In this document: piece after piece, positions 28,594-45,560 of the stretch
Layout of the letters: each line of letters starts with the position of its first letter
Position numbering within the stretch: position 1 is the stretch's first letter
From: Dioscorea cayenensis subsp. rotundata
Lineage: Eukaryota > Streptophyta > Magnoliopsida > Dioscoreales > Dioscoreaceae
Reading direction: 5' to 3'
Length of the DNA: 64,000 nt
Assembly (NCBI RefSeq): GCF_009730915.1
Contig: NC_052489.1
Coordinates: 23,181,916-23,245,915, forward strand
The notes under the pieces: generated by a model
Databases searched by the model: none
What the model was told of the DNA's origin: nothing
The model's input: the letters and a program-made list of their open reading frames with translations, nothing else
Translations under genes and position numbers: made by a program

Positions 28594-28635
28594 ATTAAAT
28601 ATATCTCCTAATTTAAACAAAATATTCAAATATCA

Positions 28636-29300
28636 AGACCAGCCGAGAGCACAGATCTCGAGACAGTCTAAAATACTAAAATCTCAAGATTAGCCGAGAG
28701 CACCGATCTCGAGGCGATCCAAAATATCCAAAATACACAAATCTCAAGACCAGCCGAGAGCACCGAGCTCGAGGCGATCCAAAATATCCAAAATACACAA
28801 ATCTTAAGACCAGCCAAGAGCACAGATCTCGAGTCGGTCTAAAATGCTCAAACCCCTGGACCAGCCGAGAGTGTTGATCTCGAGGAGATCCAAAATATTC
28901 AAAATACACAAATCTCAGGACTAGTCAAGAGCACTGATCTCAAGACGGTCTAAAATACTCAAATCTCAAGATCAGCCGAGAGCACCAATCTTGAGGCGAT
29001 CCAAAATATCCAAAATTCACAAATCTCAAGACCAGCCGAGAGCACATATCTCGAGGCGGTCTAAAATACTAAAATCTCAGGATTAGTCGAGAGCACATAT
29101 CTCGAGGCGATACAAAATATCCAAATCTCAAGACTAACCGAGAGCACAGATCTCAAGGCAGTCTAAAATACTCAAGTCTCAGGATCAGCCGAGAGAACAC
29201 ATCTCGAGGCGATTCTAAATACACAAATCTAAAGATCAGCCCAGGCCACACATCTCGAGGCAATCTCAATCCCAAGATCAGCTATGAATACAAATCACAG
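28636..29300. repeat. Minisatellite of interspersed 51- and 60-bp units
   Basis: About thirteen diverged units share the core GACCAGCCGAGAGCACNGAT followed by CTCGAGGCG. Short units (51 bp) continue GTCTAAAATACTMAAATCTC. Long units (60 bp) continue GATCCAAAATATCCAAAATACACAAATCTC in two parts. The order is roughly short, long, long, short, long, short, long, then short variants that decay toward 29300. Both lengths are multiples of three, so one minus-strand frame stays open across several units (28676-28909). Each unit can pair CGAGA with TCTCG around a 7-base loop. No start context or protein family supports translation. Confidence 0.85.
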
Positions 29301-35161: not shown

Positions 35162-35309
35162 TTTCCTTGTCTTTCTTTTTCTACCTTCTCTATTTCTTTT
35201 TTTTTTTACATCATCCTTCTTCCTTTTGACTTTTCCCTCTTCTTTTGTTATTGTCATTCATCTTATTTGAAATTATTTTTTTCTATTTTTTTCATTTCTT
35301 CTTTTCTTT
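33335..35309. other. Intergenic, decayed repeat sequence
   Basis: No gene is recognised. The word AACACGG(G/T/C)TGTGTTT or its variants appears near 33998, 34097 and 34213, reminiscent of LTR-retrotransposon UTRs. From 34660 to 35309 the sequence becomes a T/C-rich block with TTC, CTT and ATT tracts (ATT repeats at 35130-35162) that forms the left flank of the Mutator-like element. Confidence 0.45.
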
Positions 35310-36036
35310 GGAAATTGTCAAAAAAAAACCCTGTAAGTTTGTAATATTGCCAAAAACACCCTATTAGTTTTATAATCCCTAAAAACCCCCTCCTTTTTAA
35401 ACACTATATTTTTTTCAAACCCCCAAAAGTCCAGTAGCGGATGTGAGCGGAGTGAGTTTCAAATTTTATGGACGAAAAATGCCCTTGCATAGGGAGTCGT
35501 GGCTGCAGTCATCTCGGCGATTTGAGAGGAAGTGGGATGGGTTTCCGTAGGGTAACCCCAGAGACAATTTATTGGAGCCGATTTGCTTTTTTTCTCAACT
35601 CGCGTCTTGACCTTTCCATTTCGAGTCGTCCCCAAAGTTGTCTCTACCAGTGAAGCCTCAGTAATTGGCATTTCATCGACTTTTTTTCCTTTCCACCCGG
35701 TATCTCGAAGGAGAAGTCCCCAGCGCAACTAGTTGGCATTTCATCGGGTTTGCAATCTAAGGTATTGAGTATGGTTTTTATGTTAATTGTTACATTACAA
35801 CGAAAGATTTTTTTCGGTTTTTATTTTTGTGCTCTGTTTTTTTGTTGGAAGATATTGAAGTCTGCAGGGGATTTCTCGGCTAAGGTTTTGTTAGTCGTCA
35901 GGGAGATTTCTCGGCTAGGGTTTTGTTTTTGTTTTTGCATTTTCATATGTATACACTATCGAAATAGTTTTTTCGATTGTTATGATTTGTGTAATATTTA
36001 TAATGTACATTTCCCCTTTCGTTTGATATGGTTGCA

Positions 36037-36208
36037 GTTTTACAAATGAGATTGACGTTTAAGAAATGAGATGTTACAGTTTAAACTTTGTTGTCTCTGT
36101 TTAAGTATTCCCGTCTCTGTTTAAGAAAATGGGTCTCTGTTTAACATTTGATATCTCTGTTTAATAATTGGGAGGTTACCGTTTAAAACCTTATATTTCC
36201 GCTTAAAA
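36037..36208 (+). repeat. 20-bp-period GTTTAA array, left of ORF2
   Basis: GTTTAA-type cores start at 36037, 36057, 36079, 36099, 36119, 36139, 36159, 36181 and 36201. The spacings are 20, 22, 20, 20, 20, 20, 22 and 20 bp. Several units share the longer core TCTCTGTTTAA; the bases between cores are diverged. It lies between the left MULE end and the plus-strand ORF. Confidence 0.85.
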
Positions 36209-36260
36209 TTTTGTCAATATTGCATATTGAATGTGTTGTTATTGTCGCAGGCCTGTGATT

Positions 36261-37020
36261 ATGGCGGTCAACCTAGTTAATGGGCGATGCTATTTGACAC
36301 CAGTTGTGGAGACCTTAGCTGAATTGAAAGATAACATGACCCCTCGACACTGGGAGATTATTCGAAGGACACCGTTTGCAGCGTTCACTGAGCTGGAAGC
36401 TATATACCAAGAGAGAGCCCTTCTTGATTCTCTTTTGCAAAGGTATGATGGTCGCACCAATAAATTCAGGATCGGGGAAAGCCTGCTGAGTTTCAGACCT
36501 TAGGATGTGGGCCTCGTTCTTGGTCTGCGTTGCGATGGCGACGCAGTCGTGTTTCAGAAGAAGAAGACCCGCTCAGCGTTCGAAGGGTGGTATTTATCAA
36601 AAACCTACGAGCGACACAAAGACTCCATCAAGAGCATTCAGTGCGACTTGTTCGACGGAGGGAGAAGAAGATAATTTTTGTCAAACTCCCGATGGTGTAC
36701 CTCATGGGTGCAGTCCTCTTCCCAAATACATCATGCTCGGTTCGAGCGGATCGTTGATTACGTCGATGATCTACCAGATGAATGGGGCGATACGCATGGG
36801 CGCGAGCTGACGCACAAGTGGCTTATGGAGGATATTCCCCAGCGACCGCCCGAGTGCAAGATAGATGCGCCGGGTAGAAGACCAACACAGGGTACATTAA
36901 GGGTTGCTCGGTCACGCTTAACGTCTGGTTTTACGAGCTGACCGGAATGGGGAAGAAAGTCCGCTTTGGCAAGGTCCCAAGGATGCTGTGCTACGGTGAA
37001 AGTACTTACCAGAAGCAAGC
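36261..37020 (+). pseudogene. Plant-mobile-domain / DUF1985-like ORF of the MULE
   Basis: After a splice-acceptor-like GTCGCAG the frame opens at ATG 36261 and runs 80 codons (MTPRHWEIIRRTPFAAFTEL ... FRIGESLLSFRP) to a TAG at 36500-36502. The same frame then continues DVGLVLGLRCDGDAVVFQ, and other frames carry VYLMGAVLFPNTS, IVDYVDDLPDEWG and WFYELTGMGKKVRFGKVPRML. These blocks resemble the plant-mobile/DUF1985 domain found next to Ulp1-like proteases in large plant MULEs. A nonsense codon and at least two frameshifts disable it. The protease part itself is not recognisable here. It is transcribed divergently in intent, convergent in layout, to the transposase. Confidence 0.6.
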
Positions 37021-37044
37021 GACGGTAGAAACCAGTACATTTCC

Positions 37045-37210
37045 GTTTAATTTACGTTGTAATTGTGTACATTTCCGTTTAATTGTTTAAATATACCATA
37101 TATCGTTTAAACATCAGTTGAAATATTTCAAATTACAGTGTATCCGTTTAAAATAACAATGTCTCTGTTTAAATACATTCAATTCGTTGTAAAGATTAAG
37201 AGTTTAAATA
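37045..37210 (+). repeat. 20-bp-period GTTTAA array, between the MULE genes
   Basis: Cores GTTTAA or close variants fall at 37045, (37065 degenerate), 37085, 37105, 37146, 37167, 37186 (GTTGTAAA) and 37202. They keep an approximate 20-bp register with one unit (near 37125) decayed. The array separates the decayed plus-strand ORF from the 3' end of the transposase. Confidence 0.65.
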
Positions 37211-37819
37211 TGGAAATTTGTCCATCAGTACACAATGTTTCCCTGTCATGGTCGGCTTATTTACAATGCCTAGTCGGCGACAGTTTCATTGCAAGATCGT
37301 CGATTGTGATCGGATCCATGGCGGCTAGCAGATGTAACTCGCGGACATCAAACGCTGTGACTCGATCCTCTTTCGTCTAGGCCGCCCAGTCGCCTTCGTC
37401 ATGACGGTCGCATGAAGCGAAGCTCACGATTTCCGTCGATGGCCTCGTCATCGTCGGGTATGGGGAATATAGCTTCCTTATCGCCCGGTTTATAATTGTC
37501 GACGGTGAAGTACCCGCTAATAAATCGATGTACGTTGGTGTGCATGCGCATTATTGCGGTATGAAAGCGTGTTCTGCAGGGATACCATAAACTTGCCACC
37601 TCTCGACATGAACAAGTTCGATGGCGATATCTACGAGTTCTGCTGACCGGTCGATCACTCGTAGCGATCATCGACACAACGACCAACACGAAGATTTCGG
37701 CTGTCCTCAACAATGATATCTACCTTCGAATGTACGTCTGGGCATAAGTAGGTCTCCCATTTGTTCGCTTGATCACGCCGGTTACATAACATGCGCATCA
37801 ACTTGAACCTTGCAAATAA

Positions 37820-37970
37820 GGTTAAACAAAGACAGTGATGGTTAAATAATTCGTAAACATGTTTAAACATTATTGTAAATATTTAAACGAAAGTATTAAT
37901 ATTTAAAGATAGACAAGTGTAATTAAACAAAGATTGATAATGTTTAAAGGGTAACACTAAATGTTAAGTG
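37820..37970 (-). repeat. 20-bp-period TTTAAAC array filling transposase intron 2
   Basis: In the 181-bp intron (37809-37989) the cores GTTAAAC, GTTAAAT, GTTTAAAC, ATTTAAAC, ATTTAAAG, AATTAAAC, TGTTTAAA and ATGTTAAG begin at 37821, 37841, 37861, 37881, 37901, 37921, 37941 and 37961. That is eight units at exactly 20 bp. The bases between are not conserved. Practically the whole intron is this array. Confidence 0.9.
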
Positions 37971-39296
37971 TAAACCAACATTCGCAGACCTTATGGAGTC
38001 GACCATTTTCGTCGCCGGTAAATGACGAGCTTCCTTGATCCAAGCATTGAACGACTCCGCGACGTTTGAATACATCTCGCCCCAACGATCACCTCTGAAC
38101 AGATAATTCGACCAATGTGCCATATCCAATTTATTAATTAACCAGTGATGAGCTTCGGGTGATGTGGCCTGCAGTTCATTCACGGTATCATCAAAATCTT
38201 TAGCCGTGGATGCCCACGCAATGCGGAAGCATATAGACCAGCACTCCTCCCTCAATGCCTTCCCAAGTCTGACATTGGCTTTCATAAAATTGGCCTCCAA
38301 ATGTCGAAGACGATATGCATGTGGCGAAGAAGGGAAGACTCTCGCAATTGCGCTCACAAGGCCCTTGGACCTGTCCGACACGAAAGTAATTATCTCATGA
38401 TAATCTCCATCCTCGTATAAAGCATCGCCTAACTTAGATATGAACCAAGTCCAATTGGCATCGGTCTCGTTGTCGACTATACCGAAGGCGACGTGGAAAA
38501 AACCATTGTTTCCGTCTTTCCCTGTGGCACCCAGTAGTGTACCCTGATATTTTCCAAGTAGGTGGGTACCATCGAGAAACAGCAGCGGCCTGCAAGCCCT
38601 CTTGAATCCCACAATACATGCGCTGAAAGAAAAGAATGCACATTTAAAACGATCACCGTCTCTTTCCACGATCGCAACGCTGCCGGGATTTGTCTTAGCC
38701 ACCTTATCCACATACCAAAGCAAACAGTCGTAGCGTGAGATGTCACTGCCATCGAGGACCACCCGGGCATGCTCTTTTCCCAACCAAGCCTGCTTGTATG
38801 GTATGTCGACACCATGTTCCCGCAACATGTCCTTCTGAATGTAGATGGCCTTGTACAAGGGACGGTCCTTGAGCTTCTGAATCACTCGTGCGCTAACCCA
38901 TTTTTTGGACGCTTTCGGATGCGACGCCGAACCTATGCCACCACCGCAAGTGTGTGACGGATTGATTGCCTTGATTCTGAAAGTATTTTTGTTATACTCT
39001 TTTGATGCATGAAGGCGCCAATGACAACCATCGGCAGCGCATTCCACAGTCACCCGATGTTTTTCGTTCTTTATGAATTTGAAGTCAAAATTCCTTTTGA
39101 TTGCATGATTTCGAAGTACATCCCTGAAATGTTCGACACCGTCAAAACGTTGTCCAATATCCAACGACAGCACTTCAGAATGATCTGACGAGGAAGGAAG
39201 ACATCCCACACCGTCAGGGTCACCATGGGGATGAACTGGAGCACTCGCAGAATCTGAATTCCTGCCAACACTTCAGTCAAATGAAAAGATCAATAT

Positions 39297-39423
39297 GTTA
39301 AGCGGAGAATATAATGTTTAAGTGATAATGACAATATTTAAACGTCAAATTAAAAACTTAAGCAGTTAACTAATAACGTAAACGACTAGTACAAGATGTT
39401 AACTAGTGACGGACATATTTAAA
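39297..39423 (-). repeat. 20-bp-period array filling transposase intron 1
   Basis: Cores GTTAAG (39297), GTTTAAG (39316), ATTTAAAC (39336), CTTAAG (about 39358), GTAAAC (39378), GTTAAC (39398) and ATTTAAAC (39417) are spaced 19-22 bp. They cover most of the 210-bp intron (39262-39471). Exons on either side lack the core. Confidence 0.8.
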
Positions 39424-40086
39424 CACTAATGACCCCAGACAACTGGAACAATTAAAAGAGAAGGAACTTACAACGAGTAAAACTCGTTTTCATTAGGATT
39501 CGGCAATGGCACATTTTCTGTCTCGACGACAAGATCAACTACAGCACATTTGAAGATGGAGTGCACGTGACACATCCGCTGGAAGTCAACATCGTTTTCT
39601 ATTGGGCAAACCGTTTTATATCCATCTGGTGTGATGAACTTAACCCTGACAAGAGAAACTTCGAGACCCCATCGCTCACATATCTCAGCTAACACCAACT
39701 CCCAAGAAGTCTGAGCCGTGAACATTAGCACTCTTCCCTCCCCGTTGAATCTAGCAATACCACAAAAACTCTCCATAATATATCGGCCGAAAACCAAATC
39801 GTACAAACAAAATGAAATGAAGAACAAAAATAAGCCGAAGAAGAAGAAGAAGAAGAAGAAGAAGAAGAAGAAGAAGATGTAAACAACAAACAGCAGTCAG
39901 ATAGGCAAACAAAAAAAGTGCATATATATATATCACTGTCGCGATGAAGACCAAAAAGTGCATAGAGGTTAGACTAGACGTGATGTGATTGGGCGGTATT
40001 TTTCCCTCCATCAGAAGGGCAAAAAAGGAAAAATATATGCCACTGTCGCGATGAAGACGTATTATCATCGCTCGACATGAGTATCT

Positions 40087-40425
40087 GTTTAACCGTCAAG
40101 TTTTTTATGTTTAAACAGATACATATAGTGTTTAACATAACGATTAACGGTTTAAATAAAGTCTATATCATGTAAATAATACGTAAAACGTTTAAATATA
40201 GTGACTTAACTGTTTAAAATATATGTTATTGTTTAAATTGAATGCTTTCACTGACATCGCGTTGAAGATGGTACCTCCTGGGTCACTGTTTAAACATCTT
40301 TACGTATTTTCTTAAACACCGTTGTCATTGTTTAAAGAGTAACTTGAGTATTGTTTAACTTTTTCTATTGTTTACAATGACGTTCTTTTGTTTCCCACAT
40401 TGTTTTTACTAGGTCTCTGTTTAAA
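40087..40425 (+). repeat. Approximately 20-bp-period GTTTAA array upstream of transposase
   Basis: Cores at 40087, 40109, 40130, 40150, 40172 (GTAAAT), 40190, 40212, 40231, 40288, 40311 (CTTAAAC), 40330, 40353, 40370, 40390 and 40419 are mostly 18-23 bp apart, with one gap around 40250-40270. The array covers the region just upstream of the transposase start, where a promoter would lie. Confidence 0.75.
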
Positions 40426-40439
40426 TTTCAGAAGTTCAC

Positions 40440-40540
40440 ATTCAAATAAAACATTCGTTTACAACATTTACAAAACATTTACAAAACATTTATAAAACAT
40501 TTACAAAACATTTACAACATTTACAACATTTACAAGGACT
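40440..40540 (+). repeat. ACATTTACAAA tandem repeat
   Basis: Eight or nine units of ACATTTACAA(AA), 9-12 bp each, run from about 40450 to 40536. They directly follow the 20-bp array and look like a separate local expansion. Confidence 0.85.
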
Positions 40541-40595
40541 TTGGACACTCACGACTCGACTATCGTATAACGAAACAAGTGTCTGTACATTCGAA

Positions 40596-40680
40596 TGCTC
40601 ACAGCGGTTGCATAACATGCGCATCAACTTGAACCTGCACAACGTACAACATTAAAAAAAAGGTTAAACAAGCACATTCA
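40596..40680 (-). repeat. Second copy of the transposase exon-3 start
   Basis: The word CATAACATGCGCATCAACTT followed by GAACCT at 40612-40637 duplicates 37787-37809 (the intron-2/exon-3 boundary). Similarity continues into the following GGTTAAACAA. It lies upstream of the gene, out of order, so it is a rearranged second copy. Confidence 0.6.
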
Positions 40681-40815
40681 TGAAAATGACTATTAATCAA
40701 TGTGTCATGGTCGGACTTAAGCGAAGATACTCGATAGTTAAACACGTAGCGACATAGTTGTACATCGACGTAATGTTCTTAAACGGTAACAAAAAGTCTC
40801 AGTGATAAATATCAA

Positions 40816-41088
40816 CCCTCGTCTTAAAGGATGTTTTCCCGACCTCCCTCCTCTGAGAATCCTCCGCAATCACGCTAATCACGTGAAAAACTTTCTTTTC
40901 TTACCCAAGTCGAAAAGCTCGCTTAATTGCTTGCCTCGTCCATCCATCCCGGAGAATCTTCCGCATTCGAGCGATTATGCGAGTATTTCGACTCAGGCGA
41001 AAAAAAGATAGTTTAACTTGTTGCGTGATTACGGCTGATTGATTCTCAAGATAAGGAAGGAGGTTCACGAAACATCCTTTCAAATAGA
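40816..41088. repeat. Long imperfect foldback with about 110-bp arms
   Basis: The left arm (40816-40935) contains, in order, AAAGGATGTTT, ACCTCC, GAGAATC, AATCACGC, AGTCGAAA, CTCGC and AATTGCTTG. The reverse complement of 40962-41088 contains AAAGGATGTTT, ACCTCC, GAGAATC, AATCACGC, AGTCGAAA, CTCGC and AATCGCTCG in the same order with similar spacing. The loop is about 30 bases. RNA from either strand would fold into a long mismatched hairpin. It lies in the tail of the MULE, next to a GAG/GAT-rich tract (41101-41155). Confidence 0.8.
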
Positions 41089-41303
41089 GTGGTTGTCCAT
41101 GGGAAGAGGAGGAAGAGGACGAGGAGGAGGAGGAGGATGATGAGGATGATGACGAGTGGTTATCCATGGGAAGGGTTCTTCCTGGTTATTTATGGTGTGA
41201 AGTCCACAAGCAGGCTGACTCTTCATATCCGAGAAAAAAATTAAACGCACAGTGGACCGACATTGACTGATTACAACGAACGGGTGTTCGGATATTTATG
41301 TTA

Positions 41304-41345
41304 CCGTGCATAAGAATTAATGCCGTCATTAATTCTTATGCACGG
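41304..41345. repeat. Perfect palindrome, 19-bp arms, 4-base loop
   Basis: CCGTGCATAAGAATTAATG (41304-41322) is followed by CCGT and then its exact reverse complement (41327-41345). No mismatch occurs in the arms. It sits within the MULE tail just before a copy of SWIM-region sequence. Confidence 0.95.
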
Positions 41346-41830
41346 GATACCATAACCTTGCCACCTGCCACGTGCCACCTGCCAACAATTCAGATCAAAC
41401 ATAAAAGATCACCGTTTTACGCAGAGACTTTGAGAATTTAAACGTTAATATGAAAAGTTATACATGTAAAGATAATGTTAAACGGAGATGACAAGTATTA
41501 AACGAATATGACAATTATTAAACATATTAGTAATATATTTAAACGGATAATAGCAAATAGTTAAACATTATTTAAAATATACAAAAAAAGATAACCATAA
41601 ACGAGAAGAACTTTTACAACGAAATGAACTCGCTTTTCAAACGGAGACGACAATGGCACATGCTCCGCCTCGACAATAAAATCGACTACGACTCATTTGA
41701 AGATGAAGTGCACTTGACCAATCCGATGGAAATCAACTTCATTTTTACGTTGGAGAAACCGATTTATATATTTCGGGTATGATAAACTTCACCCGGACTA
41801 CCACAAATGAGTCGCCATAATAAACTCCCT
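41340..41830 (-). pseudogene. Degraded second copy of MULE transposase pieces
   Basis: On the minus strand 41830-41605 is a diverged copy of transposase exon 1. It shares words such as AATGGCACAT, CTCGACRA, TTTGAAGATGRAGTGCAC, and GATTTATAT/GTTTTATAT in order with 39480-39700. The stretch 41346-41372 (GATACCATAACCTTGCCACC) matches exon-3 SWIM-region sequence at 37581-37600. Exon 2 is missing. A 20-bp-period array (ATTTAAAC, GTTAAAC, ATTAAAC cores at 41437, 41477, 41497, 41517, 41537 and 41560) lies between them. It is a deleted derivative joined to the main copy. Confidence 0.65.
41437..41580 (-). repeat. 20-bp-period TTAAAC array in the MULE tail
   Basis: Cores at 41437, 41458 (GTTATA), 41477, 41497, 41517, 41537 and 41560 keep a 20-bp spacing, several followed by CGG/CGA (GTTAAACGG, ATTAAACGA, TTTAAACGG). 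It is the counterpart of intron sequence between degraded exon copies. Confidence 0.8.
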
Positions 41831-42214
41831 GCCTGAATGGTCAAACCGATAGCAACGAAGAGATTCTCACCAGTATCACTGCAAACCGGCGAACCCGAAG
41901 TCGAACAACTCAAATGAGGAGAAATGAGGAGAATAACAAGATGTAATGCAACTCCCTAGGTATTGTCTATCGAAACCAAGCGGAAAGCCCCTCGAAAAAG
42001 GTTGAACATGATGTGATTTGGCGCTTTCCTTTCCCACCAATTTCAAGGCCAAAAATGGGATTTCACAACATGGACCCATTTGAAGTGAACGGTAGGGGGT
42101 AATAGGGAAGTTAAACACTAACGGAAGGGCTGTCCGGGGTGTGTAAAAGTAGGAAGGGGGTTTTGGGAAGTTTGGAAAATTACGAGGGGTGAACAGTAAT
42201 TTTCCCTTTTTTTT

Positions 42215-45153: not shown

Positions 45154-45560
45154 CCATGCATCATTTAAATTTCAAAATTTAAATTATTTCTAAAAAAATT
45201 ATAGTGGATTTAAGTTAAGCTATTTCATGTTTAATTTTATTTTAAAAATGATTATGAAGAATAAAATTACAATAATACTGTGAGATGGAATTCAAACATA
45301 TAAGATTTAATTAAAAAATAAATTTTATACATTTTAAATTATAAAGGGATAAAATATCAACATCTAATATTTAATATAAATAAACTATTAAATTTATCTT
45401 CGAATATTTAGAGTGGCATTTTATTTCCTCCAAAATTTAAGATTAGAGTGGCATTTTATTTCCTCCAAAATTTAAGATTAGAATCCCTCTATAACTCATT
45501 ATTGAAAATTTGTGATTTATTTATATTAATAAAATATTATATATATATATATATATGTGT
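45154..45560. other. AT-rich flank with a 36-bp tandem duplication
   Basis: TTTAGAGTGGCATTTTATTT followed by CCTCCAAAATTTAAGA occurs twice in tandem at about 45408-45480. One end of a 41-bp direct repeat (45186-45226) also lies here. An (AT)n run at 45540-45556 precedes the LTR-like region. No gene. Confidence 0.6.

Follow-up and report, generated by a model that had tools for sequence, protein, structure and literature searches.

VANC21, a DUF1985 protein encoded by the Arabidopsis Mutator-like element (MULE) VANDAL21 (Hi), binds the motif YAGTATTAY. Dense arrays of this motif, in a single orientation, occupy the introns, the intergenic and the terminal parts of the element, and these regions lose DNA methylation when VANC21 is expressed (PMC5735166). 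VANC6 uses a different motif, AGTTGTCC/AGTTGTAC (PMC5735166), and RNA-directed DNA methylation targets the same non-coding regions (PMC10398659). Within the literature cited here, in so far as its text was available, experimental proof of VANC-type sequence-specific anti-silencing comes from Arabidopsis only. Sasaki and colleagues are said to have traced VANC systems to a eudicot origin in 2022 and to have mentioned a helical periodicity of the motifs. Melon, rice and grape have MULEs with Ulp1 domains (PMC2528002, PMC13317346), while a PMD gene, sometimes antisense, has already been noted in the MULE-Monocots clade (PMC6446971). Here we present a MULE with phased arrays of the motif GTTTAA in its non-coding parts, located in a 64,000-nucleotide stretch (hereafter the window) of the white Guinea yam, Dioscorea cayenensis subsp. 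rotundata (contig NC_052489.1, positions 23,181,916 to 23,245,915).

The yam element resembles VANDAL21/VANC21 as a MULE with weak terminal repeats, a transposase and a DUF1985-type second gene, and in having short motifs at high density, mostly in one orientation, in non-coding DNA, arranged in arrays that expand and contract (available text of PMC5735166 and PMC10398659). It differs in its motif, which is (T/C)GTTTAA and not YAGTATTAY, in its monocot host and in being known from sequence alone; this comparison covers motif, density, orientation and placement, and the two-turn spacing described below is not part of it. The VANDAL6/VANC6 system resembles it through a related protein and through tandem copies of another short motif in non-coding DNA (PMC5735166), whereas the VANC6 motif finds a single match in the yam element. 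An Ulp1-like domain antisense to the transposase, in a MULE with short terminal inverted repeats (TIRs) or none, is reminiscent of KI-MULE/Kaonashi (PMC2528002, PMC13317346), although the yam Ulp1-like match lies below the Pfam cut-off. The PMD gene of the MULE-Monocots fits the yam companion gene, a likeness by gene content alone, but phased motif arrays are not reported in the available part of that source (PMC6446971). Among the matches listed, none described GTTTAA arrays or a VANC-type system from Dioscorea or from other monocots, which is weak evidence of absence because the literature covered was open-licence only. What would be new here is another motif with a strict two-turn period in a monocot, the kind of system being already known from the Arabidopsis VANDALs.

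Two-turn spacing of the GTTTAA arrays

GTTTAA or its complement TTAAAC was detected 44 times in the 1099 bp of six intervals of the window element and 52 times in the 4064 bp of all its non-coding parts, against none in 2835 bp of its exons (exon limits drawn by eye) and 65 in the remaining 57,101 bp of the window. An original prediction, made from the letters of the window, had claimed a core spread through all six intervals and scarce in the transposase exons, and these counts bear it out. It had also given the core as (G/A)TTTAAAC or a half of it; the core is real, but an oriented (T/C)GTTTAA(A) fits better than a palindrome, according to a logo of 1022 sites from related copies. A single orientation dominates in four of the six arrays (those starting at 36037, 37045, 40087 and 41437) and is mixed in the other two (37820 and 39297), which fall within inferred transposase introns.

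Periodicity was studied by autocorrelation over 35310-42205 with 500 dinucleotide shuffles as control. GTTTAA has 29 sites there against 3.7 expected and six pairs at lag 20 against 0.01. Its lags 20, 21, 22, 40, 41, 42, 60 and 62 were matched by none of the shuffles, lag 61 holds one pair, lags 28-33 hold two single pairs and lags 9-12 none. TTTAA behaves alike, with peaks near 20 bp beyond the shuffles, as had been predicted (lag 21 was reached by 2/500), while the looser TTAA also gives six pairs each at lags 8 and 33 and four at lag 12. The spacing is near, but not exactly, the predicted 20 bp and is better described as 20-22 bp, as in the array with units at 37822, 37842, 37863, 37883, 37903, 37923, 37944 and 37964.

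The element is one of a family. A 1-kb transposase region matches at 94-100% in the 40 scored of 1956 first-look candidates (100% being the window itself), and 20 other copies were fetched from the same genome. In the window and these copies, which are related and not independent, same-strand GTTTAA pairs number 327 at 19-23 bp, 11 at 24-28 bp and 12 at 29-33 bp, with three at 9-13 bp and two at 14-18 bp. Of all 6-mers with more than 60 occurrences in the family, GTTTAA also exceeds its expected count most strongly (997 observed, 152 expected). Scanning of 584,211,761 bases of the genome led to 16,808 GTTTAA triplets at 19-23 bp spacing, overlapping or neighbouring triplets within one array being counted separately, against 52 for the pattern read backwards; the corresponding numbers are 19 and 51 at 24-28 bp, and 47 and 83 at 29-33 bp. 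The period is thus two turns and not any whole number of turns, because three-turn triplets are fewer than their backward control. The predicted placing of all cores on one DNA face stands in so far as phased protein-binding sites fit best, but one-face phasing is insufficient as a description because the three-turn spacing is not used. The window has 11 phased triplets, all of them within the element. Five out of five other triplet-bearing stretches that were fetched (L029-L033) match the window element, their common core reflecting that they were chosen by motif.

A VANC-like companion gene

On the strand opposite to the transposase, the element bears a second gene, which in the window copy is broken by stops and frame changes. 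Its head piece is 69% identical to protein P0105 and 62% to P0004, and DUF1985 is carried by the relatives P0003, P0004, P0005 and P0105 (56-69% identical to the window piece). A database search with the head piece gave five relatives, three of them with a precomputed PF09331 (DUF1985) assignment, and in a later search, whose query included letters of P0004, itself such a relative, all three matches carried PF09331. The D. alata protein P0107 scores above the DUF1985 cut-off (43.0 vs 35.1 bits); P0105, P0106 and P0004 are above the PMD cut-off, with DUF1985 E-values of 6e-8 to 7e-6, below that cut-off. As judged through its relatives, the head of the second gene belongs to the PMD/DUF1985 group. 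Further on, a middle region with peptide repeats was seen by eye in the copies L014, L022 and L023, and an Ulp1-like tail was present in 16/20 fetched copies according to tblastn, with a ratio of non-synonymous to synonymous variation (pN/pS) of 0.37 in five of those 16. Between 37035 and 37045, a segment of about 2.5-2.7 kb is missing from the window copy but retained by 12/20 fetched copies; in L013, L022, L023 and L027 this segment holds a further array.

Since the element displays the main readable sequence features of a VANDAL system, we read the arrays as probable docking sites of the second gene's product, in a VANC-type sequence-specific anti-silencing, with a rough probability of 0.7. 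The head (PMD/DUF1985), the repetitive middle and the Ulp1-like tail would form one protein, which would bind the (T/C)GTTTAA units side by side, and the two-turn spacing in non-coding DNA may let neighbouring molecules share one face at contact distance. The bound regions would be kept or made free of DNA methylation and silencing would be prevented, so that transposase and second gene could be expressed. Copies without the second gene, such as the window copy, and a short non-autonomous relative may be served in trans, staying reactive because they have kept their arrays. The original prediction had named the MuDR-type domain of the transposase as the candidate binder; the PMD/DUF1985, VANC-like product appears likelier.

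The short relative (L029, 1625-3355) is 1.7 kb long, its ends are 76-79% like those of the window element and its arrays are dense, with 26 GTTTAA of which 20/25 consecutive gaps measure 20-21 bp. Neither a transposase nor a DUF1985 match was detected in it. As a separate observation, L029 contains an acid-rich open frame (2226-2615), perhaps a captured fragment. In L033, matches to the element ends lie within 3 kb (1-954, 993-1205, 2504-2680), suggesting nested or neighbouring insertions, and an array directly precedes each of two pieces (1396-1545 and 1964-2137) that resemble the beginning of the transposase exon.

Conservation of the core and alternative explanations

The alignment of close copies comprised 20 sequences, namely the window and 19 copies (L019 was left out). 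Pairwise diversity was lowest in transposase exons (0.044), against 0.119 for the arrays and 0.129 for the rest of the non-coding DNA. Among array columns it was 0.059 for TTAA, 0.097 for other A/T and 0.210 for G/C, the difference between TTAA and other A/T columns giving a Mann-Whitney p of 6e-4, with columns that are not independent. As whole words in arrays, TTAA was kept in 763/853 cases and TAAA, which is part of the core, at 0.894, while eight other A/T words ranged from 0.82 to 0.86. The predicted survival of core and period alone holds weakly, by the diversity of the TTAA columns in close copies, and not for the outer positions of the core, whose values are given below. In this alignment (37045-42207), array G/C columns show roughly double the diversity of A/T columns, and the commonest per-base changes are C-to-T and G-to-A, as expected where cytosines are methylated; together, they suggest past cytosine methylation of the arrays.

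In the diverged elements L030 and L031 the arrays keep their positions, one 5' of the second gene and one within its intron, and are 80-100% identical in the cores and 51-67% in the spacers; in the 5' array, window and L031 share 34/35 core and 49/93 spacer positions. For core compared with A/T spacer, Fisher tests yielded 3.6e-5 for window-L031, 4.5e-6 for L030-L013, 0.006 for L013-L031 and 0.098 for window-L030. These tests are uninformative because ten pairs of non-homologous arrays, aligned as control, gave core identities of 0.77-1.00 and spacer identities of 0.38-0.59. The pairwise contrast is mostly an effect of the aligner on any two arrays, and was rejected as proof of selection among diverged elements; of the predicted outcome for related copies, what stands is the lower diversity of TTAA in close ones. 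Array, period and position are nevertheless retained while spacers turn over.

That control is also an argument for regarding the arrays as decayed 20-21-bp tandem repeats, spread by slippage and capture and devoid of function. Tandem units do expand and contract (the array in the VANC-like gene's intron of L031 gained 43 bp, approximately two units), short tandem runs are reported by Tandem Repeats Finder (TRF), and word conservation among close copies is unexceptional. Neutral decay, however, should affect the core as much as the spacer, whereas the same core is found again and again between different spacers (seen by eye on one contig), TTAA columns are less diverse than other array A/T columns, the core is missing from exons, and a single spacing class holds the 16,808 triplets. 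We consider this explanation unlikely. A fresh tandem repeat, as a sufficient explanation, was rejected on the same recurrence of the core with differing spacers, in agreement with what had been predicted.

It is decidedly unlikely that the arrays are subterminal or internal sites of the transposase itself, for transposition or autoregulation. The element encodes a MuDR DNA-binding domain and L029 retains arrays without a transposase, but the arrays occupy introns and the centre of the element, and the outermost ones are approximately 730 and 630 bp away from the ends, where a transposase must act; nearer to the ends, only single core-like sites (35395 and 42109) are present. Host-factor sites, or nucleosome exclusion or positioning in enhancer or promoter DNA, are the least probable origin: AT-richness, two-turn phase and arrays upstream of both genes would suit them, but arrays also lie in introns and between genes, the core is fixed and oriented, the window triplets all fall in this element, to which the five other fetched stretches show matches, and nothing points to the nucleosome signals of the original prediction, beyond spacing no test having been aimed at them.

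Several observations weigh against the reading of the arrays as docking sites of a VANC-like protein. The host is a monocot, and the published VANC motifs are practically missing from the element (no YAGTATTAY and one AGTTGT(C/A)C). This lack lowers the identity with VANC21 and VANC6 and not the mechanism, because motifs differ between VANDAL families (PMC5735166). At the outer positions of GTTTAAAC, diversity is 0.179 for G and 0.121 for C; these bases are conserved no better than the spacer, with its mean of 0.1295. In the non-coding DNA outside the arrays, ATTT (350/387, 0.904) and ATTA (0.894) are kept no worse than TTAA within them. The window head piece itself remains below the Pfam cut-offs (PMD E-value 0.0076, DUF1985 E-value 0.19), as does the Ulp1-like tail in L013, antisense to the transposase (PF02902 Peptidase_C48, E-value 0.0029, 17.9 bits against a cut-off of 20.7). 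No database protein joining head and tail was found, three matches covering 49-59% of the query with only PMD and DUF1985. Finally, of the eight copies whose frames were read in part, none showed an intact second gene (L013, L014, L022 and L023, and the heads of L015, L017, L018 and L019).

Structure of the element and implications

The coordinates of the element and its features are presented in Table 1. The ends are short and degenerate, left TGGAAATTG and right CAGTAATTTTCCC, with imperfect inverted ends of about 10 bp as seen by eye. Also by eye, a target site duplication (TSD) of 9 bp was recognized in two of five elements examined with both ends (L021 and L029, not in L015 and L018), and is unclear in the window copy.

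Table 1. Features of the yam Mutator-like element, in positions of the window.
Feature	Position	Strand	Remarks
Mutator-like element, internally deleted copy	~35309..42207		limits set by alignment with other copies
GTTTAA array upstream of VANC-like start codon	36037..36208	+	7 GTTTAA, 1 TTAAAC in 36030-36215
VANC-like gene, 5' part (PMD/DUF1985 group)	36261..37035	+	start 36261; stops 36501, 36675; later pieces in other frames
Deletion junction	37036..37044		~2.5-2.7 kb gone: rest of VANC-like gene and array in its inferred intron
GTTTAA array between convergent genes	37045..37215	+	7 GTTTAA, 1 TTAAAC
Transposase C-terminal part, SWIM-like CxC..C stretch (by eye)	37330..37810, approximate	-	frames 37655-37882 and 37399-37719
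GTTTAA/TTAAAC array, inferred transposase intron	37820..37975		eight units 20-21 bp apart
Main transposase exon, MuDR DNA-binding and MULE domains	37990..39262	-	PF03108 E 4.4e-23, PF10551 E 1.5e-17, above cut-off
Array, inferred transposase intron	39297..39430		1 GTTTAA, 2 TTAAAC and looser units
First transposase exon, PB1-like	39470..39775	-	PF00564 E 5.3e-4, 20.3 bits, below cut-off 23.6
Longest array, upstream of transposase gene	40087..40425	+	11 GTTTAA, 3 TTAAAC
Array beside duplicated PB1-like exon	41437..41580	-	0 GTTTAA, 6 TTAAAC

At E ≤ 1e-10 the transposase has 99 relatives in the database, of which almost all carry PF10551 and/or PF03108 and many the PF04434 SWIM domain; the named ones belong mostly to D. 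cayenensis subsp. rotundata, and the closest named matches are Dioscorea. Its main exon is free of in-frame stops in 12/20 aligned sequences (indels ignored), with a pN/pS of 0.36, and its C-terminal part is split over two reading frames in the window copy. The PB1-like first exon has a diverged duplicate near the right end of the element (41598-41798 against 39453-39650, 76% within the window), and a GTTTAA-type array adjoins each of the two. Seven copies of an 11-bp unit, AACATTTACAA, adjoin the longest array at 40463-40535. Elsewhere in the window, a tandem array with a unit of 51-60 bp and higher-order periods of 111/171 bp is located at 28618-29266, and a perfect 35-bp direct repeat (2.1 copies) at 45408-45482.

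A broader and tentative proposal, possible rather than probable, is that a VANC-type system is at work in a monocot and that one motif serves many diverged yam MULE families as a shared network with more than 16,000 phased target triplets, unlike the family-specific motifs of Arabidopsis. A monocot system of this type would therefore either predate the monocot-eudicot split or have arisen twice. An array of VANC design in a crop monocot, with its own motif and strict two-turn period, would carry the arms race between transposons and DNA methylation far beyond Brassicaceae, and the yam elements would offer a natural experiment on the co-evolution of motif, spacing and protein. They may also add another pair of protein and motif, a second one, with which DNA methylation could be removed at chosen sites. 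The triplet counts at two-turn spacing, set against the 19 and 47 of the wider classes, are an exceptionally clear mark, in a genome, of a rule of binding geometry.

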